From Candidatus Enterococcus testudinis (lineage in GTDB: Bacteria; Bacillota; Bacilli; Lactobacillales; Enterococcaceae): 52,448 nucleotides of DNA. Within the stretch, counting starts at the first letter, position 1, and every line of letters starts with the position of its first letter. Shown here piece after piece: positions 1 through 21,292 of the stretch. The DNA is taken from the NCBI RefSeq assembly GCF_002140915.1, contig NZ_NGKU01000001.1, positions 1,628,814 through 1,681,261 of the forward strand, given 5' to 3'. The position numbers and the translations under genes were made by a program. The notes below the pieces were generated by a model. That model was not told the origin of the DNA, ran no database searches, and worked only from the letters and a program-made list of their open reading frames with translations.

Positions 1-74
1 TATCAGATGTTGTTAGCATATTAAATTCATTCTTAGTTTTCAAATAACTCCAATACAAAAAATTACCGTTCAAA

Positions 75-2348
75 TTAATCAATATTTTTTAGTGATTCAA
101 CAAAGTTTAATTTTTTTATTCTTTGACTAACAAAAAATGTGGTACTTAAAGAACAAACCCAAACAATAATCGAAGCAATTGCAACATTTCTCACACTTAA
201 ATAAGGTGTATAATCAATCTGTATCGTTGAAAAAGTTTGCACATATTGTCCTAGAAACCATGCGCCTGCTGGGATACCAATCAACCAACCAATACTAGTA
301 GTAACAACGTTCTCAATCATCGTGATACGTCTGAGTTCTTTCTTACTAAAACCTAGCACACTGAGGGTCGTATAATCTCTAGTACGCTCGACAAAATTCA
401 ATGTCCCTAAATTGTATAAAACAACAATGACTAGCACCACGGCAAAAGCAATGATCATACTGAATATACCATCTAGACTAGCCACAAAGTCATACGCATT
501 TTGTTTCTGATCAGAAATAGCGATACTAGAAGTCACCATTTCTGTGGATTCAATGTCTGACAATGTCACTTGGTCATCAACAAGTAACGTGTGCGGTGTA
601 AATACTCCGCCTGCCTCTTCCCAAGTTTCTGATAATAAATAGGCTCCTTGATTGGTTTCACTCGTAATGATCCCCTTAATTTCAAATGAAAAGGCTTGAT
701 CATGAAAAGCTGGATAAACATCAATCATATTCCCTTTTTCAAGATTTGCACGTGTAGCAAATCCCTCCGTTAAATAAATTCCTCCATGGTTGATTTGTTC
801 TCCTTCATGGGTTTGCATATGAATAAAGTCTCCCTCATCAATGATCATTAATAATCGGTTGTGACCATCATCAGGAGAATAGCGTGCAGGTAAGATTTGA
901 ACAGCTTGTCCTTCGAACGATTCTTCTAAGAGATCCATTTGGTTGGTATTCAAACGATAATCGTAGGTGAAATCTTCTTGATAAGCTTTGTCTACCAATG
1001 TCTGAATAGACTCTGGCATACCCAATCCTGCCATGATCAGCATCATCCCGCCAGCTACACCAATGATCCCCATTAAAATACGCGTCTTATTCATTGATGC
1101 ATCTCGGATGCCCCAACGGCTTTCATAGCTTACTTTCTCCCATATTTTTTCTGATTTTTCTAAAACTGTTTTTCTTATTCGTTTTTCATTCCCACCTTTA
1201 AGGAAATCAGCAGGCAATCCACTATGGGCTTTACGAGAGGCCAGAAAAGCAGCCAGTGTACAAATCAACAGGACCAACAGACAAACAAGCAAGGATAGAT
1301 AATTATACGAAACTCGCCAATTAGGCATAGCCAACATTGCTTTTTGCGTATCCAAAACAAAATTTGATAATAGTGGAGAAATACAGATTCCGCAGAGCAC
1401 CCCAAATCCACCAATCAGAAACCCATAGCTCGCATAATGTGCGCCAACTTGACGATTAGAAAACCCCAGTGCCTGCAAAACCGCAATTTCCTTTGATTGT
1501 GTATCAATCAAGCGCTTGATTGTCGTATACATGGCCAAAATGGCCAATAGTATAAAGATAAAAGAAAACATAAAGGAGAGATTACGAATCTGATCCACTC
1601 GGTCAAACGCTTCGGAGACTTCATTTAGCGTGTCATGGTCATAGTAAGCGATGTGCCGTTCACCTAAAATCTTTTCGCTTTCAATGCGAAGAGAATGACT
1701 GACACCTTGTATCTCTAGGACATTTGGCAATCCCTTATATCCCAGCTGATGTTCGATTGTTTCCGTAGATACCAGACCATATCCATATTGCAGCGCATTC
1801 GGTGCAATAAACTCTTGTGTACCCGTAAAATATATCCTATCTGAGGATAAAATGAAGCCAGCAATCGTCAAGTCTACTTCATTTTCTGATAGGGTGACTT
1901 GAATCACATCGTTCACACCAAGCTGATTGGCTTCTCCATACGCTTGATTCAACCAGATAAATCCTGATTCAGAGTGGAGCATTTCACCCTCTACCAGATA
2001 AGGAGATGTATGCGCATCTGCTTCAAAGCTCCGAATCGCGATGTTTTTTTCTTTCCCTCCATCGGTAGTATCTTGCACATCAATGCTGTACATTTCAGAT
2101 ACATCCGTTACCCCAGCTACCCCTTTGATCTCAACAACGTCCGCTTCCGTAAAACCAGTGCTATACAACCATGCATCTGCTAATCCTTGTTCAGAGATAA
2201 ATGACTGTAATGTCTTATCTAAACCTCCCCAAACACCTTGCAAACCAACAAAAACCAGAACACTAAGAAATGCCATGAAGAACACTGAAAAAAACTGCGT
2301 CCAATTTCGCTTCAGGTCACGAAATAACTTAATCAGCAAATACTTCAT
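75..2348 (-). CDS. Large MacB/FtsX-type ABC transporter permease
   Basis: This 757-residue membrane protein has two FtsX-like halves. TM1 is at about residues 18-40, followed by an extracytoplasmic domain to about 255 and three TM segments at about 256-370. A second TM at about 425-445 leads to a second outer domain and three final TM segments at about 630-735. This duplicated architecture is typical of permeases that move or sense peptides and lipid-like substrates across the outer membrane face rather than importing nutrients. The start is set at the ATG at 2348, one base after the stop of the ATPase gene and preceded by a GAGAAGAGGG ribosome site; the longer reading frame inside the ATPase gene is rejected. 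It forms a transporter with the ATPase at 2350-3024. The substrate is unknown. Confidence 0.85.
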   Translation of the reverse strand: MKYLLIKLFRDLKRNWTQFFSVFFMAFLSVLVFVGLQGVWGGLDKTLQSFISEQGLADAWLYSTGFTEADVVEIKGVAGVTDVSEMYSIDVQDTTDGGKEKNIAIRSFEADAHTSPYLVEGEMLHSESGFIWLNQAYGEANQLGVNDVIQVTLSENEVDLTIAGFILSSDRIYFTGTQEFIAPNALQYGYGLVSTETIEHQLGYKGLPNVLEIQGVSHSLRIESEKILGERHIAYYDHDTLNEVSEAFDRVDQIRNLSFMFSFIFILLAILAMYTTIKRLIDTQSKEIAVLQALGFSNRQVGAHYASYGFLIGGFGVLCGICISPLLSNFVLDTQKAMLAMPNWRVSYNYLSLLVCLLVLLICTLAAFLASRKAHSGLPADFLKGGNEKRIRKTVLEKSEKIWEKVSYESRWGIRDASMNKTRILMGIIGVAGGMMLIMAGLGMPESIQTLVDKAYQEDFTYDYRLNTNQMDLLEESFEGQAVQILPARYSPDDGHNRLLMIIDEGDFIHMQTHEGEQINHGGIYLTEGFATRANLEKGNMIDVYPAFHDQAFSFEIKGIITSETNQGAYLLSETWEEAGGVFTPHTLLVDDQVTLSDIESTEMVTSSIAISDQKQNAYDFVASLDGIFSMIIAFAVVLVIVVLYNLGTLNFVERTRDYTTLSVLGFSKKELRRITMIENVVTTSIGWLIGIPAGAWFLGQYVQTFSTIQIDYTPYLSVRNVAIASIIVWVCSLSTTFFVSQRIKKLNFVESLKNID

Positions 2349-2349
2349 C

Positions 2350-3024
2350 TCAAACCCTCTTCTCTTTTTCATCGATTGACACGATTTTTCCATCATGTAA
2401 CCGAATCACTTTATCGGCAAACGCAGCAAACTCTGCATTATGTGTGACCATAACTACAGCAGTTTTCGACTTTTTGGCTGCAGCTTTCAACAAAAGAAGG
2501 ATCTTATCACCTGTTTTTGAATCTAAAGCACCCATTGGTTCATCACAAAGCAACAGCTTTGGTTCTTTTGCTAGGGCACGGGCAATCGATACACGCTGCA
2601 TTTCTCCCCCTGAGAGTTGGGCTGGAAAGTTGTTTTTGCGATGTGTTAAGCCAACCTCTTCTAAGTAAACTGTGGCATTGTGCCCATGATGGTGTAATTG
2701 ACCTGCAATTCCGACGTTCTCTAACGCTGTCAAACTAGGAATCAAATTATAAAATTGAAAGACAAAGCCCACAACATCTCGTCGATAGATCGATAATGCA
2801 TGGTCATCATAATCAGTGACATCTGTCCCATTGATCGACATTGTTCCTTGGCTTGCTCTGTCCATGCCCCCTAACAAATTCAATAAGGTGCTTTTTCCTG
2901 ATCCAGAAGGGCCAAGAATCACTGTAAATGCACCTGCTTCGATCTTAACATTTACGTTGTTCAAAGCGATCACTTTCCGGCCCCCTTCTCCGTACAATTT
3001 GGTGATGTTTTTCAATTCAATCAT
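2350..3024 (-). CDS. ABC transporter ATP-binding protein (LolD/MacB type)
   Basis: This 224-residue nucleotide-binding subunit partners the large permease immediately downstream. Walker A (GPSGSGKS) is at residues 38-45, the Q-loop at Q90, the signature LSGGE at 137-141, and Walker B ends in D161-E162 followed by the D-loop. The sequence belongs to the group that pairs with FtsX/MacB permeases (export or peptide-sensing transporters). An AAGGAG ribosome site lies just before the ATG. A terminator-like hairpin separates it from the response regulator upstream, so it may have its own promoter in the roughly 100-bp gap. It could still be a target of the neighbouring two-component system; this is inference. 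Confidence 0.92.
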   Translation of the reverse strand: MIELKNITKLYGEGGRKVIALNNVNVKIEAGAFTVILGPSGSGKSTLLNLLGGMDRASQGTMSINGTDVTDYDDHALSIYRRDVVGFVFQFYNLIPSLTALENVGIAGQLHHHGHNATVYLEEVGLTHRKNNFPAQLSGGEMQRVSIARALAKEPKLLLCDEPMGALDSKTGDKILLLLKAAAKKSKTAVVMVTHNAEFAAFADKVIRLHDGKIVSIDEKEKRV

Positions 3025-3083
3025 TTGTCCGCTCCTTCGATATGATAATTTGTGTTGTTCTAAGCATAAAAAACCACAAAGAA

Positions 3084-3112
3084 AAAAACATCCGTAACAT
3101 CCGAATGTTTTT
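3084..3112 (-). terminator. Rho-independent terminator after the response regulator
   Basis: Read on the minus strand, an 8-bp AAAAACAT/ATGTTTTT stem with a GC-containing loop is followed by a run of T. It sits directly downstream of the response-regulator stop and upstream of the next ABC gene. The stem is AT-rich, so read-through is possible. Confidence 0.5.
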
Positions 3113-3124
3113 GTGCGGGGTTCC

Positions 3125-3724
3125 TCATTTGATCAAATTCAATTTGATTCCTTCTCTAACTGCCCCGATCCGTGTCTGAACTTGCAATTTATTGCAGATA
3201 GACGACACATGACTTTCAACAGTACGGCGACTGATAAAAAGTGCTTGGGCAATATTTTCATTGGTATACTCTTTGGCCACAAAATGCAATACGTTTAATT
3301 CTGTCTGGGTCAAAAATTCATCGTTTTTCTGCAATAAAGTATCCGGAACAATTCGATTCCCATCTTTGACACTCTTGATTGTATTGATCAATTCTTCATG
3401 AGAAGCTTCTTTTCGCATAAACGCTTGCACCCTCAAAGACAATGCCCGTTTGTGTAAAAGCGGTTCATAAAATCCAGAAATCAAGATGATTTTAGGTGGA
3501 TTGGAGATCTCTTGTATAACGGGCACCAAATCGAAGGCGTGGCATTTTTTTAGCCTCATATCCATTATGACGACATCGACTGCATTCATTTTTATGAATG
3601 ACACACATTCCTCTGGATCGGTAAAAGCAGCAAGGACATCAAATGACCTTTCTGATTGCAAAGTTTGGTGTATGCCTTCCAGCACCATTTGATGATCATC
3701 TAACAAGGCGATGGTTGTGTTCAT
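3125..3724 (-). CDS. LuxR/NarL-family response regulator (ComA-like)
   Basis: This 199-residue DNA-binding response regulator has an N-terminal receiver domain with the acidic pair D9-D10 and the likely phospho-acceptor D55 (VIMDMRL). A C-terminal LuxR-type helix-turn-helix lies at about residues 137-195 (LTQTELNVL, then the recognition helix around RRTVESHV). It presumably takes phosphate from the kinase encoded just upstream, whose stop overlaps this ATG in an ATGA, so the two are translationally coupled. Its likely targets are the transporter genes around it, but no binding site was identified. Family and role as a partner are clear; the regulon is inferred. Confidence 0.93.
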   Translation of the reverse strand: MNTTIALLDDHQMVLEGIHQTLQSERSFDVLAAFTDPEECVSFIKMNAVDVVIMDMRLKKCHAFDLVPVIQEISNPPKIILISGFYEPLLHKRALSLRVQAFMRKEASHEELINTIKSVKDGNRIVPDTLLQKNDEFLTQTELNVLHFVAKEYTNENIAQALFISRRTVESHVSSICNKLQVQTRIGAVREGIKLNLIK

Positions 3725-5493
3725 GGAAAGTCTCCTTTCAGAAGTGCTTGCGGTATTTTCAAACGAATCGTTGTCGGTTCTGATTTCATCTCCAACTCCC
3801 CAGCCAATAATGTAATTTTCTCTCTGATCACATGCAAGCCAAAATGAAGATGATTGGTCTCAATTTTCCCATCAAATACGCCATTATCAATCACTTCGAT
3901 GACCATATTTTGTTCCTCCCGATAATTGGTTATCGTGATTTCCGTTGCCTGCCCATGTAAAATACTATTATTGATCAACTCTTTGATTGAACGTAAAATA
4001 AAAATATTCACCGCTGCCGATTCTGATACAAGACGTTCATCGAATGCGAAATGAATCGAAACCGGAAATCGTTGTTCAAATTGAAGGATGATTTCCTTTA
4101 CTGTTTGTGCCAAACCCACCTCTTTCAAAAGCAGCGGATAAATATCTGAACACAGTTCTCGCAAATCATAGATTGTTTCTTCCAAATGAAATTGAATTTC
4201 TTTTGTAGTGATTGCCTGATTTGCTTCGGTACTTCGGATCAGATGAATCATATCTTGAATCACTTGATCATGGATAAAGGTAGCAATCGTTTCTCGTTCC
4301 AGTTCAACGGCTAAAAAAATATCAAAAGAATGGTTCTCTTGTTTTCTGCCGTTTGCTAAAAACATAAGCTCATCAAAAATCGGCAGTAATGTATAAATCA
4401 AAATGACGATATATAACTTGACGATTGCAGCTGGAACAAAAGCAACCAATTCCATACTTGCAAAAACAATCAAGGAAATGATTGCTGTCAAAAGCATAAG
4501 AATCATCTCCCTACTCAATCGATAACGAAATTTTAAGACACGCTGAACCGTCAAATAGTGAAAAATACAAAAGAGTGGCAACAGTAAGAACAATAATAAA
4601 ACCGCATAAGGTGCTGTAGATAGCTTCGGATAACCATAGAAAAAGAACAATGGCGCCAGACAAACAATGGTAACTAATGGAATATTGATTTTTGTCATTT
4701 GAACGGCAGACGACCGTCTCTTCTGTTTTTGCCGCATGAAAAAAGTACATTGCATGCCCATGATTCCTAACAACACCATAATAAAACCAACAGATAGATA
4801 TTCATTGATGACATTTGGCATTGCGAAAATACATACGCTTACACCAAAAAGAACATGCAGCAGCGCAATCAACCATAGCCCTCGCATGAGGCGATGTTGA
4901 TTTGCAGCTGTTTGCCCTTGGCTTATATAGGATTGTCCATATATAGGAAACAAAGAAAGTCCCGCGATCACAACGAGTCGTGAAAGAGCATCCCCAAGAC
5001 TCGAAGGGTAAACCGCCAACAAAACAAATGCCGCTGTTGCGATGCAAAAATAAAACAATTCAGAAGTTCCTGTGTAGATCTGTCGGCGATAAAAAATGAC
5101 CAGAAATAGCATCAGTCCAAGACTTAACAGAAACAAAGAAACAAACCCGCTGTCCAGAGATCCATTCATTGGAAAAACGACTTGCAGCAGACGGCCATTT
5201 CTTTCTATCGTCATTGCTTCCAATTGTTCTGCTACTAGCCAATTTGACAATGGTTGGTGTTGAGCTGCAGGAAGTGAATCAATCAGGAGGATTTTATCTC
5301 CTACTCGGACATCTACCGCTTCCGCTAAACCACCACTATAAATGCGTTGCACGAGCCAATCATTTTCTTGAAGCCGCCCTCGAATCCCAATGTAGCTGTT
5401 CTGCATAGAGAAACTGATACAATAAATGCTGAAAACGAGATATAGACAAACCAGACCGATACTGATTCCTGACCAATACATGCGCGACTTCAA
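3721..5493 (-). CDS. ComP-like sensor histidine kinase with extracytoplasmic PDZ-like domain
   Basis: This 590-residue membrane kinase has TM1 at about 10-30, then a PDZ-like stretch at about 40-110 (RIYSGGLAEAVDVRVGDKIL). Some seven further TM segments reach to about 375. The cytoplasmic HisKA_3-type helix carries the likely phospho-acceptor H408 in an HDQ motif. The ATPase domain shows an N box (ELINN, 505-509), DNG at 536-538 and GLHVIREK at 552-559. The order PDZ, many TMs, HisKA_3, ATPase matches Bacillus ComP, the quorum-sensing kinase, although no ComQ or ComX gene is visible here. The start is a TTG in a TTGA overlap with the ATPase stop, preceded by GAGGGA; an ATG lies four codons later. 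The ligand is unknown. Confidence 0.88.
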   Translation of the reverse strand: MKSRMYWSGISIGLVCLYLVFSIYCISFSMQNSYIGIRGRLQENDWLVQRIYSGGLAEAVDVRVGDKILLIDSLPAAQHQPLSNWLVAEQLEAMTIERNGRLLQVVFPMNGSLDSGFVSLFLLSLGLMLFLVIFYRRQIYTGTSELFYFCIATAAFVLLAVYPSSLGDALSRLVVIAGLSLFPIYGQSYISQGQTAANQHRLMRGLWLIALLHVLFGVSVCIFAMPNVINEYLSVGFIMVLLGIMGMQCTFFMRQKQKRRSSAVQMTKINIPLVTIVCLAPLFFFYGYPKLSTAPYAVLLLFLLLPLFCIFHYLTVQRVLKFRYRLSREMILMLLTAIISLIVFASMELVAFVPAAIVKLYIVILIYTLLPIFDELMFLANGRKQENHSFDIFLAVELERETIATFIHDQVIQDMIHLIRSTEANQAITTKEIQFHLEETIYDLRELCSDIYPLLLKEVGLAQTVKEIILQFEQRFPVSIHFAFDERLVSESAAVNIFILRSIKELINNSILHGQATEITITNYREEQNMVIEVIDNGVFDGKIETNHLHFGLHVIREKITLLAGELEMKSEPTTIRLKIPQALLKGDFP

Positions 5494-6167
5494 GGCATTC
5501 CCTCTTCACTTAACTTCCCATCCCGCATCAATACTTGACGATCACAAGCATCTGCAATCGACTGTTCATGGGTGACGATTATCACGGTTTTGCCCTTTCG
5601 GTGTTCTGCTAATAAGATATCTAAGACTATCTGGCTATTCAAAGAGTCTAGATTACCGGTAGGTTCATCTGCTAAAAGAATGTCAGGTTCATTGATCAAC
5701 GCGCGTGCAATGGCTACACGCTGTTGCTGACCACGAGAAAGCTGATTGGGGTATTTCTTCAGTTGATCTTGAATATTCAAAGACAAACACAGTGCCTGTA
5801 GTTTTAGGGCTTTTGCTTTTCTGATCTTTCGTGGTAAGTATTTTGTTGGCATCAAAATATTTTCTTTGACAGTGTAATCATGAATCAGACCAAAATGCTG
5901 TAAAACAAACCCAATCGTCTGATTTCTTAGTTGTGCTTGTTGTTTGTTATTCAGGTCTTCTGCTTTCAGGTGTTTGATTTGATAACTGCCTTTATCAAAC
6001 TGGTCCAATAAGCCTAATATTCTTAATAAGGTCGTTTTTCCACTGCCAGATTCACCGATAATGGCGATCAATTCTCCTTGATCACAATGAAAGTGTGGTA
6101 AATCAAGAGCTGTACATACCGCCTCTCCCGTTTGATAAGTTTTCTTTACATTCGTTAAATCAATCAT
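5490..6167 (-). CDS. ABC transporter ATP-binding protein with variant signature motif
   Basis: This 225-residue ATPase presumably energises the two small permeases encoded just upstream. Walker A (GESGSGKT) is at 38-45, Q90 is the Q-loop and Walker B ends in D167-E168 followed by PTGNLD. The signature is LSRGQ (143-147) rather than the usual LSGGQ: an arginine replaces the first glycine. The start is the ATG at 6167, 8 nt after GGAGG; an in-frame upstream TTG lies within the ribosome site and is rejected. It overlaps the upstream permease gene by 8 bp and the kinase gene by 4 bp. The MacB-like/bacteriocin-export class is likely but not proven. Confidence 0.9.
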   Translation of the reverse strand: MIDLTNVKKTYQTGEAVCTALDLPHFHCDQGELIAIIGESGSGKTTLLRILGLLDQFDKGSYQIKHLKAEDLNNKQQAQLRNQTIGFVLQHFGLIHDYTVKENILMPTKYLPRKIRKAKALKLQALCLSLNIQDQLKKYPNQLSRGQQQRVAIARALINEPDILLADEPTGNLDSLNSQIVLDILLAEHRKGKTVIIVTHEQSIADACDRQVLMRDGKLSEEGMP

Positions 6168-7434
6168 GCTGATTTCCTCCTTCCCCAAGACTTATCCCTC
6201 CAGTCTTCTTTCGTGGGAAACAATGAAAGTACAAGACGATCAAGACAATCAATAAATAGATTGCGAAATAACTTAGTGTACCAACGACTATCTGGCGCAA
6301 CAACCATTCTTCATTTAGAAATGTTTGAGCCAGAATAGACAGCAGTGCCCAAGCCACAACAAATAGCAGCAAATAACCTGTAATGAGTATCATAAAAATC
6401 TCTGTTTTTGTTGAACCTATTGAGAAATATGCATCATAGGCTGATAGACGTTTTTTATAACTAAAATGAACGATCATCCCTGTTTGTACAGTTGCAAAAA
6501 CAAGCAGCAACAGTAACAAAAGCAGTTGGTTACGATACAAAGAACGATACATATTGATCTCATAATCATAACTAGTTCGATCATTGATAAAAGATAGATA
6601 CCCGTGAGAAAGTCCGATTTCTTTTACCGCTTCTGCGGTGGCTAAATAATCGAGCTTCTTTTCTGCCTCAGCAGGCAACATATAAAAAAAGCCCATCATT
6701 TGTACAGCTAGAGTCGGACTATTGGATTGAACCATGTCTTCCGTTAACGGCATCACAATCATCTTATCTAGTATGATTTCTTCCGTCATGCCTTGCCAGA
6801 AATTCTGTAACGCATGATTGTCGGTCAAAAAGCCTTTTACTGTATATGAACGTTCCACAGTGATGACTAAACCTTCATCATCAACGTCCTCATACGTCTG
6901 CAATAGAAAGTCATCACCTATCTGATAGCCTTCTTGATAATCCGCACCCAGCAGAATCCCGTTTCCTTGAACGGCAAAATCGGTATCATCCAATTGATGT
7001 CCACTGGAAAGATGAAATGCGGCTTTCTCTACCAACGCTTGATTCATGATCATCAGCTGTGGTTGAACCAATGGCTGTCCAAATTGATTTTCTATAGGCA
7101 TTGATGACTCAGAGAATATAAAGGCATCAGCATCTGCAAAATAATCTCCACCTTGCAAATAGTAATAAATATCCTCCCCGAACAGCGCTTTTCCTTCTTC
7201 GATAATAGCCAAGGTATCCTTTGGAGAAATGAAGTCAGTTGAAACATCTACCAAACGGATCGAGGAATCAGAACCAAAGTTTTTGGTGAGGGCTTGTGTA
7301 TGTGCAAGGTATGTTTCATAGGCTTGAAAGAACTGGATGCTGCTCATGATAACAAGGGCGGTCATGACGACCATCGCACCTTTCAACCATAGATGCACCC
7401 CCATCTCTGTCAGGACATAAGTCATTCTTCTCAT
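6160..7434 (-). CDS. FtsX-topology ABC permease, subunit B
   Basis: This 424-residue membrane protein has one N-terminal TM (about 15-36), a large outer domain of about 260 residues, and three C-terminal TM segments (about 305-325, 350-375 and 385-410). The topology is that of FtsX/MacB-type permeases. I cannot place it in a named family; bacteriocin-associated integral membrane proteins are the nearest type I can suggest. The ATG overlaps the stop of the preceding permease gene in an ATGA, so the two small permeases are probably made in equal amounts and act as a heterodimer with the ATPase at 5490-6167. The substrate is unknown. Confidence 0.75.
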   Translation of the reverse strand: MRRMTYVLTEMGVHLWLKGAMVVMTALVIMSSIQFFQAYETYLAHTQALTKNFGSDSSIRLVDVSTDFISPKDTLAIIEEGKALFGEDIYYYLQGGDYFADADAFIFSESSMPIENQFGQPLVQPQLMIMNQALVEKAAFHLSSGHQLDDTDFAVQGNGILLGADYQEGYQIGDDFLLQTYEDVDDEGLVITVERSYTVKGFLTDNHALQNFWQGMTEEIILDKMIVMPLTEDMVQSNSPTLAVQMMGFFYMLPAEAEKKLDYLATAEAVKEIGLSHGYLSFINDRTSYDYEINMYRSLYRNQLLLLLLLLVFATVQTGMIVHFSYKKRLSAYDAYFSIGSTKTEIFMILITGYLLLFVVAWALLSILAQTFLNEEWLLRQIVVGTLSYFAIYLLIVLIVLYFHCFPRKKTGGISLGEGGNQHD

Positions 7435-8474
7435 TCATCCACCTCCATAAACATCGCCGTAACACTGACTTTTCTGACATATAGGATAGAAAGGAGCAAA
7501 AAGACAACCAATAGTCCGACGAATAACACGAAAATGTGGAACAATGCCCACCAACGTTGAAGCAATGTCAAAGGCATGATCCAAGGAAACAGACTGATCG
7601 TGCCGAAGTAAATCACTAATGCCGCAATAAAGGAAGCAGCGCTCAAAAATAAGAACTTCTTAAAGGTATCGATCACTAACTGAATTGTATGGGCGCCGAT
7701 CATTTTCCTGACCGCAAATTCCATTCGCCACAAATCAAAACGTTGATAGTAATGGATGCCCATACAAAGCACGATGACAAGGACCAATAGTAAGAATAAC
7801 TGACGATATTCTGCTAAGATTTGCGAAATATCTTGCTGACTTAAGCTACTTGACTGTTCACTCATTTGACCAATATAAAGACGCTCATCGATCACGGACA
7901 AAATCTCATACAATTGTGTCTGGGCTTTTTCGTAACTTTCACTGCGGACGGTAATCGAAGTGATGTTGGATTGGACACGTGCATCTGTGAACAACATATC
8001 AGAAAACAGAACCAAATGATGATCATAAGGTGATTGAGGCAGTATATCGGTGACGTCAAAGGGCGTATCATAAATAGACAGTTGCTGGTTGCGTATGTCT
8101 TTCGCAACTGATGGATAAGCCTCTTTCCCTGCAATCAAATAATGAGGGACATCAGCTGTTTTTTTTAACTCATTGAATTGCGGGATTGCTTCTTGAGGAT
8201 AGATCATTGTCAACGAAGCTTTTGCGTTGTACCTAGGTAAATAAAACTCAACAATACTCGTATCATCAAGAACATCATCCAATACTTGCTTCATTCTCTT
8301 TGCATCGAATTGTAGGCCTTGAACCTCTATTTTAGCAATGGACTTATCATAAATATTCTGGTAGGTAGAAAAAAATGCCAGTTGTGATTGAATCATTGTA
8401 CTCATCAAAAGCAGCAGCAGAAAACTAATAGTAACAATCGCCCCTGGCAGTAAATGTTGTTTCAGTCTTTTCAT
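7431..8474 (-). CDS. FtsX-topology ABC permease, subunit A
   Basis: This 347-residue membrane protein has the same plan as its downstream neighbour: an N-terminal TM at about 10-30, an outer domain of roughly 190 residues, and three C-terminal TMs at about 225-245, 268-295 and 310-337. A charged stretch follows TM2 (FDLWRMEFAVRKMIG), resembling the cytoplasmic coupling helix seen in FtsX permeases. An AAAGGA ribosome site precedes the ATG. It lies 24 bp after the exported-protein gene and overlaps the next permease by 4 bp. It is probably one half of a heterodimeric permease. Confidence 0.75.
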   Translation of the reverse strand: MKRLKQHLLPGAIVTISFLLLLLMSTMIQSQLAFFSTYQNIYDKSIAKIEVQGLQFDAKRMKQVLDDVLDDTSIVEFYLPRYNAKASLTMIYPQEAIPQFNELKKTADVPHYLIAGKEAYPSVAKDIRNQQLSIYDTPFDVTDILPQSPYDHHLVLFSDMLFTDARVQSNITSITVRSESYEKAQTQLYEILSVIDERLYIGQMSEQSSSLSQQDISQILAEYRQLFLLLVLVIVLCMGIHYYQRFDLWRMEFAVRKMIGAHTIQLVIDTFKKFLFLSAASFIAALVIYFGTISLFPWIMPLTLLQRWWALFHIFVLFVGLLVVFLLLSILYVRKVSVTAMFMEVDE

Positions 8475-8498
8475 AACGATCCTTTCTATTGTTGTTTG

Positions 8499-9131
8499 CT
8501 ACACGATAGCATCTAGAATCAAGGACACCTCCATTTTTTCAGGTGGCAATGGGTGATCAAAGGGATACTTGAAGACAACCAACCATTTGGTTAGATTGTT
8601 TGCTTGATCAAAGAATGGTGTTTCGGTATAAATATCCCACAGGTCTAATGGTAGTTGATCATAGACCGATGTTGCTTGATAAGAAAATGTTTTCTGAGAT
8701 AGATCTCCTTCAATCAAAATATACAAAGGTATCGCGTAAAAACCTTCCGCTTCAGCAAGAAATTTATACTTGTAATTGTCATAATAGCCTAGTCCATCTT
8801 CACTGTGGTAAGAATCATTTTCTAAATCTATGCCTAATCCATAAGCAAATTGCTCATAAATAATACGTGATTGGATTACATCTCCCGACACACCCTCATT
8901 GGATAACGGAGACACGGACGCAGCCGATTTGTCCTTGAGATATATTTTCAAAGTATTGCGTACATATTCATCTACTGTCATGAAGGCATTGTTGACTTCT
9001 GAATCGATTGCTGTAAAGAACTCCTCTTCCTTATCCTGTGGCGCTTCTTGCTTCTCTTTATTTGTCAGAAGAAAAATAAGACTGACAAGTAAACAGAGAC
9101 AGAGAAAGGCAAATGAAAAATATCTTTTCAT
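8499..9131 (-). CDS. Exported or membrane-anchored protein of unknown function
   Basis: This 210-residue protein begins with a basic residue pair and a hydrophobic segment at about 5-23, then a highly acidic, soluble outer domain. The hydrophobic stretch contains cysteines, but I see no convincing lipobox, so an uncleaved anchor is as likely as a signal peptide. I do not recognise the family. It is the first gene of the six-gene operon with permeases, ATPase, kinase and regulator, so it may be an accessory ligand-binding or immunity protein. The ribosome site GGAGG is well placed before the ATG. Its first bases are the ones copied in the assembly artefact just upstream. Confidence 0.7.
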   Translation of the reverse strand: MKRYFSFAFLCLCLLVSLIFLLTNKEKQEAPQDKEEEFFTAIDSEVNNAFMTVDEYVRNTLKIYLKDKSAASVSPLSNEGVSGDVIQSRIIYEQFAYGLGIDLENDSYHSEDGLGYYDNYKYKFLAEAEGFYAIPLYILIEGDLSQKTFSYQATSVYDQLPLDLWDIYTETPFFDQANNLTKWLVVFKYPFDHPLPPEKMEVSLILDAIV

Positions 9132-9155
9132 GTGTATCCTCCATTCGTTTCATAC
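9126..9155. repeat. 30-bp segment duplicated at the artefact (source copy)
   Basis: These 30 bases, covering the ribosome site and first codon of the 8499-9131 gene, recur exactly at 9274-9303 between two transposase adapter sequences. This copy is the authentic one because it sits in its gene. Confidence 0.95.
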
Positions 9156-9235
9156 TGAAAATATCACTAAAACATACTATATCTCATTGATACATTTATT
9201 ATATAGTTTGAATATTTAGATAAGTTATCTTATAT

Positions 9236-9322
9236 CTGTCTCTTATACACATCTAGATGTGTATAAGAGACAGTTTCATGTGTATCCTCCATTCGTTTCA
9301 TACCTGTCTCTTATACACATCT
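9236..9322. other. Sequencing-adapter and chimeric-junction artefact (Nextera mate-pair)
   Basis: Positions 9236-9273 are a perfect 38-bp palindrome made of the 19-base transposase mosaic end CTGTCTCTTATACACATCT and its reverse complement. This is the published Nextera mate-pair junction adapter. It is followed at 9274-9303 by an exact 30-bp copy of 9126-9155, then by another 19-base mosaic end at 9304-9322. A short reading frame crossing it ends in the peptide DVYKRQ, a well-known translation of this adapter. No genomic function should be assigned, and the bases on the two sides may not be neighbours in the real chromosome. Confidence 0.98.
9274..9303. repeat. 30-bp artefactual copy of 9126-9155
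   Basis: It is an exact direct repeat of the start region of the 8499-9131 gene, enclosed by adapter sequence on both sides. This is expected from a mate-pair fragment that was not trimmed before assembly or gap filling. Confidence 0.95.
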
Positions 9323-9450
9323 AGATAATTATAGTAAATGTGTCTCGTTTTTCTAGAATATTGCCATTCTTCCTGCTCAAGATATATATCCATTTGAGCT
9401 TTCCGTCTATTCATAAGGAATCCTTTAAAATGCATAATATCTTGCACACA

Positions 9451-9485
9451 AAAAAACCAGTGCCATTTTCTCATCGCACTGGTTT
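9451..9485 (-). terminator. Rho-independent terminator after carbonic anhydrase
   Basis: A 10-bp AAACCAGTGC/GCACTGGTTT stem (9454-9463 with 9476-9485) has a 12-nt loop and is followed on the minus strand by a run of T. It lies 40 bp past the carbonic anhydrase stop. The stretch between here and the artefact at 9322 shows no supported gene. Confidence 0.85.
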
Positions 9486-9525
9486 CTCGTATCCATTTAG
9501 TTTTAAAAGGACCCATTTTTGAATC

Positions 9526-10215
9526 TCAATAGAAATAAATCGGCCGTTCTTTACGGTCTTGTAAAGGTCGATTGTTGTTTTCCAAAACTTCCTCGCGGAA
9601 TTCTTGGATGAATTTGCGACTCATTTCGCCGACCCAATCAAAAACGAACCAATTGATTGGTCCTTTGGTGGGTGGCGTCGTTAGTGAGCCCACGTAGTGA
9701 AAATGGTGGGTTCGTTCTGGCAAGAACATACTTGGATCAAACCATTGCACATGGTTTTCAAAGTCCCAAATGCTGTCGTCTTGGGCATTACAGATCCAAT
9801 TCAGTTTATCTGTCAAGCGGAACAAGATACCGACAACCAAGTTCTGGCCTTCTTCGTTCATATGCACCAAGTGAAATTCCAGCTCTTGCTGTTCGTCATC
9901 GATGATATGTTCTGAGGGCATGTGAAAATGGATATCAGTCAAATGATAATCTACCCCTTGAAAGGTCACATAACTTTCTTTATCAAAGGGAACAAAGTGG
10001 ATCGTATTTTTAAATTCTTTTTCTGTAAATTGCTCGCGTCTATAATGAAATGCCAAATCTTGATCGATTGGTTCTTCTGTTTCGTCATGGACCAACGCAA
10101 TTGGTGATTGCAGCGGGAATTGAGCCCCTTCCGCGTACCAATCGCACAGTGTATGCCAATGCTCGGGTCCATTATCGCCTGAATAACTCCAGGGAACATC
10201 CATATTTCTTTTCAA
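9526..10215 (-). CDS. cah: Alpha-class carbonic anhydrase
   Basis: This enzyme interconverts carbon dioxide and bicarbonate. Its 229 residues carry the alpha-class zinc ligands H96 and H98 (HFH) and H115 in EFHLVHMN, the supporting E102-H103, E113, and the LTTPPT substrate-pocket motif near residue 175. Unlike most bacterial alpha-class enzymes it has no signal peptide, so it is probably cytoplasmic. The start is a TTG at 10215, 8 nt after AGGAGG; the ATG four codons on is too far from that site. It lies just downstream of the pyr operon, separated by a likely terminator, and could supply bicarbonate to carbamoyl-phosphate synthase. The family is certain; the location is inferred. Confidence 0.93.
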   Translation of the reverse strand: MKRNMDVPWSYSGDNGPEHWHTLCDWYAEGAQFPLQSPIALVHDETEEPIDQDLAFHYRREQFTEKEFKNTIHFVPFDKESYVTFQGVDYHLTDIHFHMPSEHIIDDEQQELEFHLVHMNEEGQNLVVGILFRLTDKLNWICNAQDDSIWDFENHVQWFDPSMFLPERTHHFHYVGSLTTPPTKGPINWFVFDWVGEMSRKFIQEFREEVLENNNRPLQDRKERPIYFY

Positions 10216-10303
10216 ACAAACAGCCTCCTATGTCAAGCGAATCGTGATTGTAAAGTTTACGCTAAGAAAACTTTCTCCCCATGCTATCAGAAATCAGACA
10301 AAA

Positions 10304-10350
10304 TGAAAACGAATATGCTTACACATGTCTGTAAACCATTCGTTTCGTTT
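10304..10350 (-). terminator. Probable terminator of the pyr operon
   Basis: AAACGAAT (10307-10314) pairs with ATTCGTTT (10338-10345), with an inner TTACA/TGTAA pairing. A T-rich tract follows on the minus strand. It lies immediately downstream of the pyrE stop. Confidence 0.5.
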
Positions 10351-10354
10351 TGCT

Positions 10355-10989
10355 TTATTCTGCTAACCACGTTGCTGGCGATTGGCGCCATTCTTTCAAG
10401 ACTTCGACATCTGATTGTTGGATCGTTCCATTCTCCAGTGCAACTTCGATCAAGGTTGAATAATTGGTCAATGTCACATAAGGCAAATCAGCGGCCGCGA
10501 AATTTGCGGCAACTTGCGGCAATTCATAGGTGAAAATCGCAGCGACCCCTAGGACATCTGCGCCTTCACGTGCAGCCGCAGCACAGGCTTCCAGCACACT
10601 GCCGCCTGTTGATAGAAGATCTTCGATCACGACCATTTTTTGACCGGCTGTGATCCGCCCTTCGATTTGATTGCCTTTGCCGTGGGCTTTGGCTTGACTG
10701 CGGATATAGACCATTGGCAAGTCCAGCAATTCAGCGACCCATGCTGCATGGGGAATGCCGGCAGTCGCAGTCCCTGCGATCACTGCCACATCTGGAAAAT
10801 CGCTTTTGATTTTTTCAGCTAATCCTTGGGCAATTGCTTGTCTGACGCGCGGATAACTCATAGTGATACGATTGTCGCAATAAATGGGGCTCTTGATACC
10901 GCTAGCCCAAGTGAAAGGCTCGTTTGGTCGTAAAAAGATTGCCTCAATGGCTAATAAATCTTTGGCGATTTGTTTGGCTTGTGTATGCA

Positions 10990-10990
<1 letters not shown>
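10355..10990 (-). CDS. pyrE: Orotate phosphoribosyltransferase
   Basis: This 211-residue enzyme joins orotate to PRPP to give orotidine monophosphate, step five of UMP synthesis. The PRPP-binding loop is visible as [12 protein letters not shown], and the N-terminal [12 protein letters not shown] stretch is typical. The start is the ATG at 10990 in a TAATG overlap with the pyrF stop, with GGAGG upstream; a longer in-frame extension into pyrF is rejected. It is the last gene of the pyr operon, so its level depends on PyrR attenuation at the front and on translational coupling to pyrF. Confidence 0.96.
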
Positions 10991-13408
<2,418 letters not shown>

Positions 13409-13426
13409 TTGCCAAACCCCTATCTG

Positions 13427-16400
13427 TTATATTGCTTTTGTTGAAAAACTCCGTGATTCCATCACTTTCAAGATGGCATCGGCAGTATCCAGTGACGTAA
13501 ACAATGGGACGCCATGTTCCACCGCTTCTCGTCGAATAATGAAGCCATCTTCTGTCGTATTTTGCCGATCCTTATCCATGGTGTTGACCACAACTTGGGT
13601 CGTACCGTTTCTGATCAAATCTACAACATGCTCAGCTGCATCTGTATCAGAGATTTTGGCCACTCTAGTTACAGGCAAGCCCTGTGCTTCAAAGTAGTCA
13701 GCGGTCCCGCTGGTTGCTAGCAGTGTAAAGCCGACTTCAAAGAATCTAGCAGCCAATGCAGCGGCTTCTTCCTTGCTTTCATCCGAGACAGTAAACAGTG
13801 CTCTGCCAAATTCTGGGATATGCAGACCCGCTGCTTCAAAGGCTTTATAAAGTGCTTTTGCCAAATTCTTGTCTGAGCCCATCACTTCTCCTGTTGATTT
13901 CATTTCAGGGCCTAAGTAGGTATCGACTTTTAAAAGTTTTGTAAAAGAGAAGACCGGTGCTTTGATATGGACTTCATTTGGTGTCGGATATAACCCATCA
14001 TGATAGCCAAGATCTGTGATTTTCTCGCCAAGAATCGCCTTTGTCGCAATTTGGGCCATTGGGATCTCTGTGACTTTGCTTAAGAATGGCACCGTCCGAC
14101 TTGCCCGTGGGTTGACTTCGATGACATAGACTTTGTTCTCATGGATCACAAACTGGATGTTCATCACGCCGACACAGTTCAGACCGATCGCTAACCGTTT
14201 GGTGTAATCTTCGATCGTTGCAATGATCTCATCTGATAGATTTTGCGGTGGATAGACGGCCATGGAGTCTCCTGAATGGACCCCGGCCCGTTCGATATGT
14301 TCCATAATTCCTGGAATCAAGACAGTTTCACCGTCACAAATGGCATCCACTTCACATTCTTTTCCTACCAAGTAACGGTCGACAAGTACTGGGTGTTCTG
14401 GAGATGCTTTGACAGCATGTCGCATATAGTCTTGCAAATCTGCTTGGTTTTCTACGATTTCCATTGCGCGGCCGCCAAGGACATAGCTTGGGCGCACCAA
14501 TACTGGATACCCAATCGTTTCCGCAATGGCGATTGCTTCTTGTTCATTCGTTGCTGTATCCCCCGGCGGTTGCGGAATCGACAGTGCCTGTAATGCCTGT
14601 TCAAACAAATCTCGATTTTCCGCACGATCCAGATCCTCGATGCTAGTCCCTAAAATCTTGACCCCATGTTTGGCTAGTGGTTCAGCTAAGTTAATGGCTG
14701 TTTGTCCGCCAAATTGAACGATGACCCCTATTGGCTGTTCTAAGTCGATCACATTCATGACATCTTCTAGTGTTAAGGGTTCAAAATACAACTTATCTGA
14801 GATTGAAAAGTCCGTCGAGACGGTTTCAGGATTGCTGTTCATGATGATTGCTTCATAACCAGCCGCTTGGATGGCTTTCACTGAGTGGACAGTCGCATAG
14901 TCAAACTCCACCCCTTGACCGATCCTGATTGGGCCTGAACCTAACACCAATACCGATTCTTTTTCACTGCGATGGCTTTCATTTTCAAATTCATAAGTAC
15001 TATAAAAGTATGGTGTTGCTGACTCGAATTCAGCCGCACACGTATCGACCATTTTATAGACTGGATTGATTTTGGCTTCCTGACGGGTGGTTCTGATTGA
15101 ATCTTCTGTTGTCTGCCATAACCCGGCAATCGTTCGATCGGTGAAGCCGTTTTGCTTCGCTGTCTTCAATAAAGTCAGATCATCAGGTGAGGCACTCAGT
15201 GCTTGTTCGATTTCAAAGATATGCAGCAGCTTGTCTAAGAAGAAGAGATCGATTTTCGTCATTTCATGTAAGTCCTCGATCGTATAGCCGCGACGAATGG
15301 CTTCCATGACATAGAAGAGGCGATCATCTTGGGCTTTGATCACTTTTTCGATCAAATCATTGTCAGACAGCTCCGCCAATTCTTTGATTTCAATATGATT
15401 GGTGCCGATTTCTAATGAACGGACCGCTTTTAATAAGGATTCTTCGATATTGCGGCCAATGGCCATGACTTCGCCTGTGGCTTTCATTTGTGTGCCTAAG
15501 CGCCGGTCACCAGTTTCAAACTTATCAAAAGGCCAACGAGGAATTTTGGCAACAACATAGTCTAATGCTGGTTCGAATTCCGCATAGGTGGTTTCTGTGA
15601 CTGGATTTTTCATCTCGTCTAAGGTCAAACCAACCGCGATTTTCGCTGCCAGTTTGGCGATTGGATAGCCCGTTGCTTTACTTGCCAATGCAGAGGAACG
15701 TGAAACCCTTGGGTTGACTTCGATCACATAGTAGTTGAAGCTATGAGGATCTAATGCCAATTGAACATTACAGCCGCCTTCGATTTTCAATGCCCGAATG
15801 ATTTTCAATGAGGCATCCCGTAGCATTTGGTACTCATGGTCAGACAAGGTTTGACTTGGTGCGAAAACGATTGAATCGCCAGTATGGATCCCGACTGGAT
15901 CAAAGTTTTCCATGTTGCAGACCACAATTGCATTGTCTGCGGAATCTCGCATCACTTCGTATTCGATTTCTTTAAAACCGGCAATACTGCGCTCGATCAG
16001 ACATTGGGTCACTGGCGATAATTTCAAACCGTTCTCAGCGATTTGTCTTAATTCCTCTTCGTTATTACACATACCGCCACCAGTACCACCTAAAGTGAAG
16101 GCTGGTCGCACGATGATCGGGAACCCGATTTTCTTGGCAAAGGTCACCGCTGCTTCGACTGTTGATACGATCTCTGACTCAGGGATTGGCTGTGCCAATT
16201 CTTCCATCAGCTGCTTGAACAAATCACGGTCTTCCGCTTGGTCGATCGCTGATAACTTGGTTCCTAAAAGCTCAATCTTCAATTCATCAAGAATACCTGA
16301 ATTGGCTAATTCCATGGCCATATTCAATCCGGTTTGTCCGCCAAGTGTTGGCAAGATTGCATCTGGTTGTTCTTTGCGCAAGATTCTTGACACGAATTCA

Positions 16401-16612
16401 AATGTGATTGGCTCAATATAGACCTTATCGGCAATTTCTTTGTCCGTCATGATCGTTGCTGGATTGGAATTGACTAAGACAACTTCATAGCCTTCTTCTC
16501 TCAATGCTAAGCAGGCTTGCGTGCCAGCATAATCAAATTCTGCAGCTTGTCCGATGATAATGGGACCAGAGCCGATAACCATGATTTTTTTGATATCTGT
16601 ACGTTTTGGCAT
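13427..16612 (-). CDS. carB: Carbamoyl-phosphate synthase large subunit
   Basis: This 1061-residue synthetase uses ammonia from CarA, bicarbonate and two ATP to make carbamoyl phosphate. Two homologous ATP-grasp halves are clear: [12 protein letters not shown] at the N-terminus and [12 protein letters not shown] at about residue 555. The C-terminal MGS-like allosteric domain begins near 925 ([14 protein letters not shown]). Lying inside the pyr operon, it should be controlled by UMP through PyrR. Length is normal for the family. It starts one base after the carA stop. Confidence 0.98.
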
Positions 16613-16613
16613 A

Positions 16614-17693
16614 TTAGTTCTGCTCCTTCCAAGCGTCGATCATTTCTAAAAATTCATCAAATAAATGAACAGCATCGTGGGGGCCTGGTGCCGCATCGGG
16701 GTGATACTGGACACTAAATGCCGGATAGCGGCGATGACGGACCCCTTCGATCGTACCATCGTTGACTTCCACATGCGTGATCATTAATTTTTCGGTATCA
16801 ATCGATGCTTCTGCAACTGCAAAGCCGTGATTCTGTGAGGTAAAATCGATACGGCCTGTGGCGATTTCTCGCACTGGATGATTCAATCCTCGGTGACCAA
16901 ATTTCATTTTGTAAGTATCCGCACCGTTTGCTAAGGCAAACAGTTGATGCCCTAAGCAAATACCGAATATTGGCACTTTTCCTTGGATCCCTTGGATCAT
17001 CGTGATTGCCTCCGGCAGACTCTTTGGATCACCTGGTCCATTGGTCAACATCACACCATCTGGTGCAAGATCCAAGATCTCTTGGGCAGTTGTATTGTAT
17101 GGCAAGATCGTCAAGTTGCAATTTCTTCTTGATAACTCTCGCAAGATACTGTGTTTCAAACCATAATCGATAACTACGATATTTTTGCCAGTACCGGGAC
17201 TAGGATAGGGTTTTGATGTCGAGACTTGTGCCACTTGGTTGGTAGGCAAAACCGCCGCTTTCAGCTGGTCATAGGCATGTTCGAAAAGATCACCGGCATC
17301 GACGATACTGGCTTTCATCGTGCCGTGTTGCCGAATTTTCCGGGTCAAGGCACGGGTATCGATTCCTGAAATACCGGGAATGTTTTTGCGGGTCAAAAAT
17401 TCATCTAATGTCAGTTGTTTGCGCCAATTGCTGGCCCGTCGTGCATGTTCTTTTACAACGACCCCTTTACAAGTGGGTGCAATCGATTCATAATCATCAC
17501 GATTGACCCCGTAGTTACCTACCATTGGATAAGTAAAGGTAATGATCTGTCCATTAAAACTCTGGTCTGTGATCGTTTCTTGATAACCTGTCATACTTGT
17601 TGTAAAGACGATTTCTCCATATACGTTGATGTTGGCGCCAAACCCCTCGCCTTCAAAATATGTGCCGTCTTCTAAAATCAACCATCGTTTCAT
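16614..17693 (-). CDS. carA: Carbamoyl-phosphate synthase small (glutaminase) subunit
   Basis: This 359-residue subunit hydrolyses glutamine and channels ammonia to CarB. The class I amidotransferase nucleophile elbow is GICLGHQL, with its catalytic Cys at about residue 240, and the [11 protein letters not shown] segment supplies the His. The ATG at 17693 follows AAGGTGGG by a normal spacing; the four-codon longer frame overlapping pyrC is rejected. It begins 1 bp after the pyrC stop. Confidence 0.97.
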
Positions 17694-17694
17694 T

Positions 17695-18978
17695 TTATCG
17701 CCCACCTTTTTGCCAAACTATCGTACCGTTTACGAATGTATAACTTGTATCACCATATAATGACCACCCGCCAAACGGTGTATTCACACCTTTAGACAGG
17801 AAGTTTTTAGGATCGACTGCATAGGCAGTGTCCAAATCAAAGATTGCCAGATCCGCCGGCGCACCAACAATCAACCGACCAGCATCTAGTCCAAAGACAT
17901 CTGCTGGTTTAGCAGTCATCCAGTCAACCAATTGCTGCAAGGTAAAGCGCTCGGTTTTGACAAAATGCGTGTATAGCAGTTGGAAGGCATATTCTGAACC
18001 AACAATACCGAATGGTGCTTTTAAAAAACTTTGACTTTTTTCTTCCAAACCATGAGGCGCATGGTCTGTTGCGATACAATCGATTGTGCCATCTAAAAGA
18101 CCTTCAATCAATGCTTGCCGATCTTCCTTGCCTCGCAACGGCGGATTCATTTTCCAGAAACCTTCATCGGCGGGAATATCTTCATCTACCAATAATAAGT
18201 GATGCGGGGCTACTTCAGCTGTCACATGGATACCAGCTTTTTTGGCATCGCGGATCACCCGCACACTTTCTTTCGTGGAGACATGACAGACATGGTAATG
18301 GGCGCCAGTTGCTTCTGCCAGTAAGACATCTCTGGCGATCTGTGACGCTTCTGTGATACTTAAAATCCCGGGTAAGCCGAGTTCTTCTGCTCGTTGCCCT
18401 GCGTGCATCACCCCGCCAAACAACAAGGAGTCATCTTCGGTGTGAGCAACTAATGCCAGACCGTTCTCTGCAGCAGCTTGCATCGCTAGATACATGGTCC
18501 CGGCGGTCTGAACACCGACGCCATCATTGGTCAAGGCAAAGGCCCCTGCTTCTTTCATTGCAGCTGCGTCTGTCAAAACTTCACTGCGCAAATTTTCAGT
18601 GATTGGTGCGTATTGCAAGACATTGACCACTGCATCTGTTTGAATTTTCTGATAAACTTGCTTTAGTTTTTCTGGGGTATCCGGTACTGGATCGAGATTC
18701 GGCATGGCACATACCGTTGTGAAGCCGCCTCTCGCCGCTGCATGGCTACCGGTTTCAATCGTTTCTTTATATTCAAATCCTGGTTCTCTGAAGTGAACAT
18801 GAACATCCACCAATCCTGGCGTGATCAATTGTCCTTGGGCATCGATCACTTGGTCGAATGCGATATCCGAAAAGTCGCTGCCGATCCCTTTGATCTTTTC
18901 GTCTTCAATCCAGATTGCTGCTGGGATACATTGATTCCCTTTCTTGATGATCTGGCCATTCTTAATCAGTGTTTTCAT
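17695..18978 (-). CDS. pyrC: Dihydroorotase
   Basis: This 427-residue zinc amidohydrolase cyclises carbamoyl aspartate to dihydroorotate. The metal-binding HVHFREPG motif is at about residues 59-66, followed by [15 protein letters not shown]. Further ligands are visible in [10 protein letters not shown] and in CIATDHAPH. It is the long (type I) form typical of Firmicutes. GAGGAGG precedes the ATG. It follows pyrB after 38 bp. Confidence 0.97.
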
Positions 18979-19016
18979 GTTTCCTTCCTCCTCTGATCAT
19001 TGTTCGATTCTTATTT

Positions 19017-19943
19017 TTAGGCTTTGCCATTGAGTACAGCTTCTAAAATCGCCATCCGCATATACACACCATTTGCCATTTGTGTGACGATACGCGAGCG
19101 CAAACTTTCCACAAGGGCGTCGGCTAACTCCACATCACGGTTGACCGGCGCCGGATGCATAATGATCGCCCCTTCTTTCATTTTGGCTGCCCGTTCGACC
19201 GTCAATCCATGTTGTTGCAAGTAAGCTTCTTGAGAAAAACTTTCTTTGCCGTCATGCCGTTCATGCTGCACCCGCAGCATCATCATGACATCGACTGTAC
19301 TGATCAAATCATCTAAAGGCAACCAATGTCCATACACTTCAAACTCTTCGTCATACCATTCTTTTGGTCCTGAGAAGTAAACTTGGGCGCCTAAACGATT
19401 CAACAGTTGCATATTCGACTTGGCCACCCGCGAATGGGTGATATCCCCAACGATTGCTACTTTTAAATCTGTGAACTGGCCAAATTCTTCATAAATCGTC
19501 ATTAAGTCAAGCAAACATTGGCTCGGATGCTGCCCACTGCCGTCACCGCCATTGATGATACTGCATTGGATCGTCTTGCTTTGGATCAATTCGTCATAGA
19601 AATGCTCTGCGCCATGACGAATGACCGCAACGTCCACACCAATTGCAGACATCGTCAAGACCGTGTCGTAGAGGGTTTCTCCTTTTTGGACGGAGCTGGT
19701 GGAATCATCAAATTCGATGACTTCGATACCCATCTTCTTTTCGGCAACATCAAAACTCTTATGGGTACGGGTACTGTTCTCAAAGAACAGATTGGTTGCA
19801 AAATACTGTGATTTCTGAGGCGTCCACTTGGCCCCTTTTTTAAAGGCTTGGCCCCTTCTGATGAGTCCCATGACCTCACGATCAGATAATGCTTCTACGG
19901 TCAATAGATGTTTTAAACTGATTTGTTCGGATTGGATAATCAT
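19017..19943 (-). CDS. pyrB: Aspartate carbamoyltransferase catalytic chain
   Basis: This 308-residue enzyme condenses carbamoyl phosphate with aspartate, the committed step of pyrimidine synthesis. The carbamoyl-phosphate motif is [12 protein letters not shown], and HPSQCLLD and the C-terminal [10 protein letters not shown] motif are present. No regulatory pyrI chain is seen, as expected for Firmicutes. The start is the ATG at 19943, 9 nt after GAGGAGG; a six-codon longer frame is rejected, and an overlapping out-of-frame ATG is ignored. The 56-bp gap to uraA contains no attenuator, unlike Bacillus subtilis. Confidence 0.97.
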
Positions 19944-19999
19944 GCATGTAATCCTCCTCATATACGGTATACGGATGATGATTGACTGTTGTCTTTCGT

Positions 20000-21292
20000 T
20001 TATGCTTCTTCGCTGCGAGATGTTTCCGGCAATACTAAGTTCAAAAAGATGCCTAAGACGGTGGCAAGTGCCATTGCTGATAATGTGAATGTGCCAACAG
20101 TGAAGACGAGGCCGCCGATCCCAACGACTAGAATAACTGAGGCAATGATCAAGTTCTTTTTGCGGTCAAAATCGATTTTGTTGTCGATCAAGATTTTCAA
20201 GCCGCTAGCGGCGATCACTCCGAAAAGTAAGAAGCTGATGCCTGAAATAACTGGTCCAGGGATACTTAAGATCAACGCACTCAGTTTGCCTACAAAGCCT
20301 AAAACAATAGCTAAGACTGCTGCCCCACCGATAACAAAGACACTGTGGACCCGGGTGATAGCCAACACACCGATGTTTTCGCCGTAACTTGTGACAGGTG
20401 GTCCGCCAACGAAACCAGCGACGATTTGCGCGAAACCGTCCCCCATCAAAGTCCGGTTCAAACCAGGTTCTTCGAAGAAATTGCGTTTGGTCAATTTGTT
20501 CAGTACCATCAAGTGGCCGATATGTTCAGTCATGGTCACAAATGCAATCGGCGCCATAGTGGTAATGGCGTTCAAATGCAGTGTCGGTGTGTAGTTGACA
20601 AAGGGAATCTCGAAACTTGGTAGCGAGAACCACGCCGCATCAATGATGGGTTGGACATCGACGATACCAGCTACTAAAGCAATCAAGTATCCGCCAACGA
20701 TTCCCAGCAATATCGGAATCAAACCTAAGAACCCTCTCAAGAACATGTTGAAAAAAATCGTTAAGCCTAATGTCGCTAAGGCGACCAAGATGTATTTGAA
20801 GTCATAAACGCTGTCGTTGTACATCGCATTTTGCGCAGCATTGGCTGCTAAGCCTAAGCCAATGACCATGATCACAGGGCCGACAATGATCGGTGGTAGA
20901 ATCTTGTCTAACCAAGCCGATCCTGCACGTTTGATGATCATCGATACGATGACATAGACAAGACCTGTTGTGATTGCACCTTGGGCGATGGCTGGATAAC
21001 CATCCGATTTCATCAACATTTGCATCGCAGCGATGAAGGCAAAGCTGCTGCCAAGATAGGCTGGGATCTTGCCTTTGGTCGTCATCAAGTAGACCAATGT
21101 CCCCAGCCCTGAACTGACCAAGGCAATACTTGGGTTGATCCCTACTAAGATTGGCACCAAAACGGTTGCCCCAAACATCGTGAATAAATGTTGCAAGCTA
21201 AGGCCTAGCCAAGGCAATGCTTTCGGTCGATCTTTAATGTCTAAAACTGCATCCGGGTTACGAAATTCCTGCTTCTCCATGTCCTGTGTCAC
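20000..21292 (-). CDS. uraA: Uracil permease
   Basis: This 430-residue NCS2-family transporter imports uracil, probably with protons (also called PyrP). Many hydrophobic segments are present, with the characteristic [17 protein letters not shown] start and the [20 protein letters not shown] region around the substrate site. The start could be GTG at 21292 (AGGAAG 5 nt upstream) or ATG four codons later; the GTG is preferred. It lies 8 bp after pyrR and is under the same leader. Confidence 0.95.

Follow-up and report, generated by a model that had tools for sequence, protein, structure and literature searches.

Positions 9236-9326 of the window, by which we mean the whole 52,448-base stretch of DNA analysed here, are almost certainly an assembly artefact, a Nextera-type mate-pair junction adapter left behind in the assembled sequence, and not biology. 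The original prediction had named a Nextera mate-pair adapter, and rightly so; the block is one of 27 in the genome assembly, which comprises 3,202,475 bases in 3 contigs and in which the window corresponds to C1:1628814-1681261. We infer the library type (Nextera mate-pair) from the assembly alone. The kind of error is known, as adapter contamination is already in print: published microbial assemblies, including those of isolates, retain adapter sequence (PMC11536531), just as the published assembly studied here does. What was counted there was a 12-base TruSeq adapter, unlike the junction described below, and the name 'Nextera' is absent from the main text of that paper.

Anatomy of the adapter block

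The 87-base stretch 9236-9322 consists of leftover adapter and a stray copy of nearby DNA. Its parts, together with the four bases that follow and the fragment from which the copy would derive, are:

9126..9235, plus strand: putative tagmentation fragment of 110 bp, whose right end abuts the junction and whose left end recurs after it
9236..9273, no strand: perfect 38-base mate-pair junction, a mosaic end (9236-9254) followed by its reverse complement (9255-9273)
9274..9303, plus strand: stray, exact 30-base copy of 9126-9155, the start of a 210-aa open reading frame (ORF)
9304..9326, plus strand: third mosaic end (9304-9322) and the bases AGAT, with which the second half-adapter begins

The structure read originally from the sequence, with a perfect 38-base junction, an exact 30-base copy at a distance of 118 bp and a third mosaic end, holds to the letter. 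The 19-base mosaic end occurs in three exact copies, at 9236-9254 (plus), 9255-9273 (minus) and 9304-9322 (plus), against a chance expectation of 0.01 with up to 3 mismatches allowed and three matches in none of 100 shuffles, and a chance origin of the matches in the window is excluded. The first two copies abut with zero spacer and form a perfect palindrome. The bases at 9274-9303 and 9126-9155 are equal at all 30 positions and represent the sole exactly repeated 30-mer of the window; the source copy includes the reverse-strand ATG of the 210-aa ORF, at 9131. A scan of the entire window found no mosaic-end piece of at least 12 bases elsewhere in it. With the AGAT directly after the third mosaic end counted in, the adapter-like block spans 9304-9326; these four bases could alternatively be genomic.

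The mosaic end in the window is identical to the Tn5 mosaic-end oligonucleotide whose sequence is printed in PMC4248319, and the 38 bases at 9236-9273 are exactly those of the Nextera mate-pair junction adapter (PMC3928519). This is the 38-base junction pair that NextClip looks for, the mate-pair library protocol being described in the same paper (PMC3928519); the protocol and the 38-base adaptor pair are also given for Skewer (PMC4074385). The flanks agree with the known adapter in their order, which runs from a right end through the junction to an upstream left end: the fragment that ends before the junction has its upstream start repeated, in the same orientation, in the DNA that follows 9236-9273. 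Unlike the Nextera junction adapter in reads (PMC3928519), the one described here lies within an assembled scaffold, next to a further, truncated junction.

The DNA after the junction begins 110 bp upstream of it, which would place the fragment at 9126-9235. Tn5 tagmentation would have released this short fragment flanked on both sides by a 19-base mosaic end, and circularisation would have linked its two ends via the 38-base junction, so that a read would run from 9235 through the junction to 9126. Untrimmed mate-pair reads from such short, self-circularised fragments may then have gone into contig building or gap filling, where a contig at this low-GC intergenic stretch would have been extended through the junction, over 30 bases of the opposite fragment end and on into further adapter, and then joined to the right flank within the truncated adapter, at about 9322-9326. 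A short circle alone does not account for the third mosaic end after the 30 copied bases, and a second fragment end or a join made by a gap filler is needed. We infer low coverage as the cause, and likewise how the reads led to this sequence and precisely where the in-silico join was made.

Recurrence of adapter blocks in the assembly

The assembly contains 42 exact 19-base mosaic ends, and a control search with the reversed pattern found 0. With partial halves counted, it has 27 adapter blocks at unrelated sites, of which 15 are full 38-mers and 12 are of 19-37 bases. Twelve of the 27 have a single or truncated adapter, like the one at 9304-9326, and these would mark points at which the assembler returned to genome sequence. 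Runs of N are found on the same contig just left of the start of the window.

The mosaic end is a substrate of hyperactive Tn5 (PMC4248319), and the block might thereby be read as an engineered mini-Tn5 insertion, or the scar of one, that is real in the living strain. We hold this to be extremely unlikely, as the ends enclose no cargo at any of the 15 full 38-mers, the single or truncated adapters are unlike the products of transposition, and the tandem copies of 27-103 bp seen at 8 of the 27 blocks are not left by transposition. Tn5 target duplications measure 9 bp. No flanking duplication was found across 9236-9273 or across 9304-9326; at one of the 27 blocks (G000:C1:3143830; L054, 1522-1577), exactly 9 repeated bases, GTCATATAC, stand on both sides of the junction, an arrangement that favours a mini-Tn5 and that, by the 9-bp rule, also fits two neighbouring fragments from a single Tn5 cut. 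The Tn5-type transposase domain (PF14706), moreover, was not found in the host genome (0 of 1), the control search having given a match in one of 14 named genomes (E. coli). A natural Tn5/IS50 insertion was rejected on the same absence of PF14706 from the genome, and on the ends abutting with no transposase or cargo between them.

The places at which the adapter was retained are AT-rich. The mean GC content of the flanks is 28.5% at the 21 clusters of blocks (24-37%), as opposed to 42.4% for 348 tiles of the window, of which 3 fall below the block-site mean; the contrast is smaller against the surrounding 3-kb stretches (28.7% at the blocks and 36.3% around them). The 14 bases that follow a block were found again at most 400 bp upstream at 10 of the 27 blocks, those within one cluster not being independent of each other, compared with 0 of 20,260 background 14-mers, which were kept 500 bp off the blocks and examined in the upstream direction only. 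Untrimmed reads from short fragments that circularised on themselves would be expected to give such an upstream recurrence of the bases after a block. When left-side copies and the 9-bp case are included, nearby copies are present at 14 of the 27 blocks, 9 of them as exact tandem duplications of 9-103 bp, and absent at 13; because the background covers the upstream direction only, the count to set against it is 10 of 27 and not 14. A first background (347 of 5,935) was dropped, having sampled duplicated DNA beside the blocks.

The same 38-mer in other genomes and records

A perfect palindrome that recurs in an assembly may also be taken for a natural repeat, or for a mobile element that ends in a 38-bp palindrome. 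The probability of this is, in our view, negligible: half of the palindrome matches the oligonucleotide in PMC4248319 letter for letter, and the 38-mer is absent from the other 39 of the 40 genomes in the relatives search and does occur in unrelated records of plasmids and viruses.

Within the family, the 38-mer was found in 2 of 105 genomes, our own and another Enterococcaceae genome (G072), which carries 71 copies. Of 72,556 plasmid records, 5 also carry it (NZ_CP032357.1, NZ_MT039157.1, NZ_KY978628.1, NZ_MF589339.1 and NZ_MF918372.1); two of the five come from Klebsiella and the others from Serratia, Cronobacter and Escherichia. The DNA at 8900-9700 matches plasmids in 5 records, each over 38-41 bases that comprise the adapter only. 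In one of the five plasmid records, the 38-base adapter lies outside the listed genes. Among viral contigs, the 38-mer was found in 7 stretches of 6 contigs, in at least 2 of which the adapter lies no more than 10 bases from the end of the contig; it was not found in 50,697 phage records, nor in 20,395 E. coli records, at the sensitivity of the respective searches. With an identical sequence in unrelated replicons and a patchy occurrence among assemblies, the 38-mer tracks the laboratory and not descent.

In the part of G072 that was sampled (12 stretches, L067-L078, with 24 blocks), 5 of the 24 blocks have nearby copies, 4 of them detected by the upstream 14-mer test, for which the background is 5 of 9,220. 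The flanks of these blocks are barely AT-richer than the surrounding stretches (GC content of 32.5% and 33.8%, respectively), and a low GC content at the blocks is thus not a general condition.

Gene order across the scar and consequences for annotation

The ORFs around the block include the following three, which are on the minus strand, RIT-PI-f being an Enterococcus sp. of a species different from that of the host:

8499..9131, minus strand: 210-aa ORF of the left flank, with 69% identity in RIT-PI-f over residues 27-209 and 65% over residues 2-208 in the relatives search
9298..9516, minus strand: spurious 72-aa ORF, which ends at its C-terminus in translated adapter (LDVYKRQV)
9526..10215, minus strand: 229-aa ORF of the right flank, presumably carbonic anhydrase-like, with 98% identity in RIT-PI-f

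The original prediction took the artefact further and read the adapter as the possible mark of a false join, warning that 1-9235 and the rest of the window may come from separate loci. Junction reads do unite distant fragment ends by design (PMC3928519), and when all 18 relatives' loci were scanned, the left genes were found at the same place in that of RIT-PI-f only and not beside the 229-aa gene in the other 17. The warning is nevertheless not borne out, and we regard a false join as very unlikely, because in RIT-PI-f, whose genome is free of the 38-mer, the gene order and strand continue through the join. There (locus L027, contig G003:C3, which contains locus L022 letter for letter), the genes that match 5490-9131 stand directly beside those that match 9526-13408, in the same order and on the same strand, and the DNA alignments cover 5511-9028 of the window and then 9450-20000, again on the same strand. 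The gap between the two alignments is 355 bp in RIT-PI-f and 421 bp in the window, or 334 bp without the 87-bp block. At the protein level, the left ORFs (5490-6188, 6160-7434, 7431-8474 and 8499-9131) are 66-76% identical to their counterparts, and those at 9526-13408 are 88-98% identical.

The conservation of order, strand and spacing in this one relative, of another species, indicates that the flanking genes are real neighbours. The left-flank gene is found in 2 of 40 relatives, which were sampled at one genome per species, and in 2 of 6 genomes of the genus, both times in our own genome and in RIT-PI-f. For the ORFs at 1-5490, RIT-PI-f shows no close match next to the shared block, so that synteny stops at 5490, to the left of which the window holds no adapter piece of at least 12 bases.

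The exact bases at the join are a different matter, and in this respect the join is still as unproven as was first stated. We sought the exact empty site in RIT-PI-f and found the intergenic DNA too diverged to fix the true bases, the alignment having 270 identical positions in 548 columns with the block and 261 in 483 without it. In view of this divergence, we claim the conserved gene order alone and treat the bases at 9235-9327 as uncertain; the unreliable bases are limited to the intergenic DNA around 9236-9326. We consider it unlikely that the scar hides a short piece of genuine AT-rich intergenic DNA, lost by the assembler, in which a small regulatory element might lie between the flanking genes.

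The significance of the artefact is one of data hygiene only, and the tandem copies beside adapter blocks are not to be read as biological repeats. A literature search on DVYKRQ and other adapter peptides returned no title about contamination. The translated adapter peptide DVYKRQ, pointed out from the sequence at the outset, does occur in ORFs, both in the 72-aa ORF at 9298-9516 and, genome-wide, in four distinct ATG-initiated ORFs of at least 60 aa at the adapter blocks. As 13 of the 27 blocks overlap ATG-initiated ORFs of at least 60 aa (frames with N excluded), neither gene ends nor short hypothetical proteins should be trusted there.
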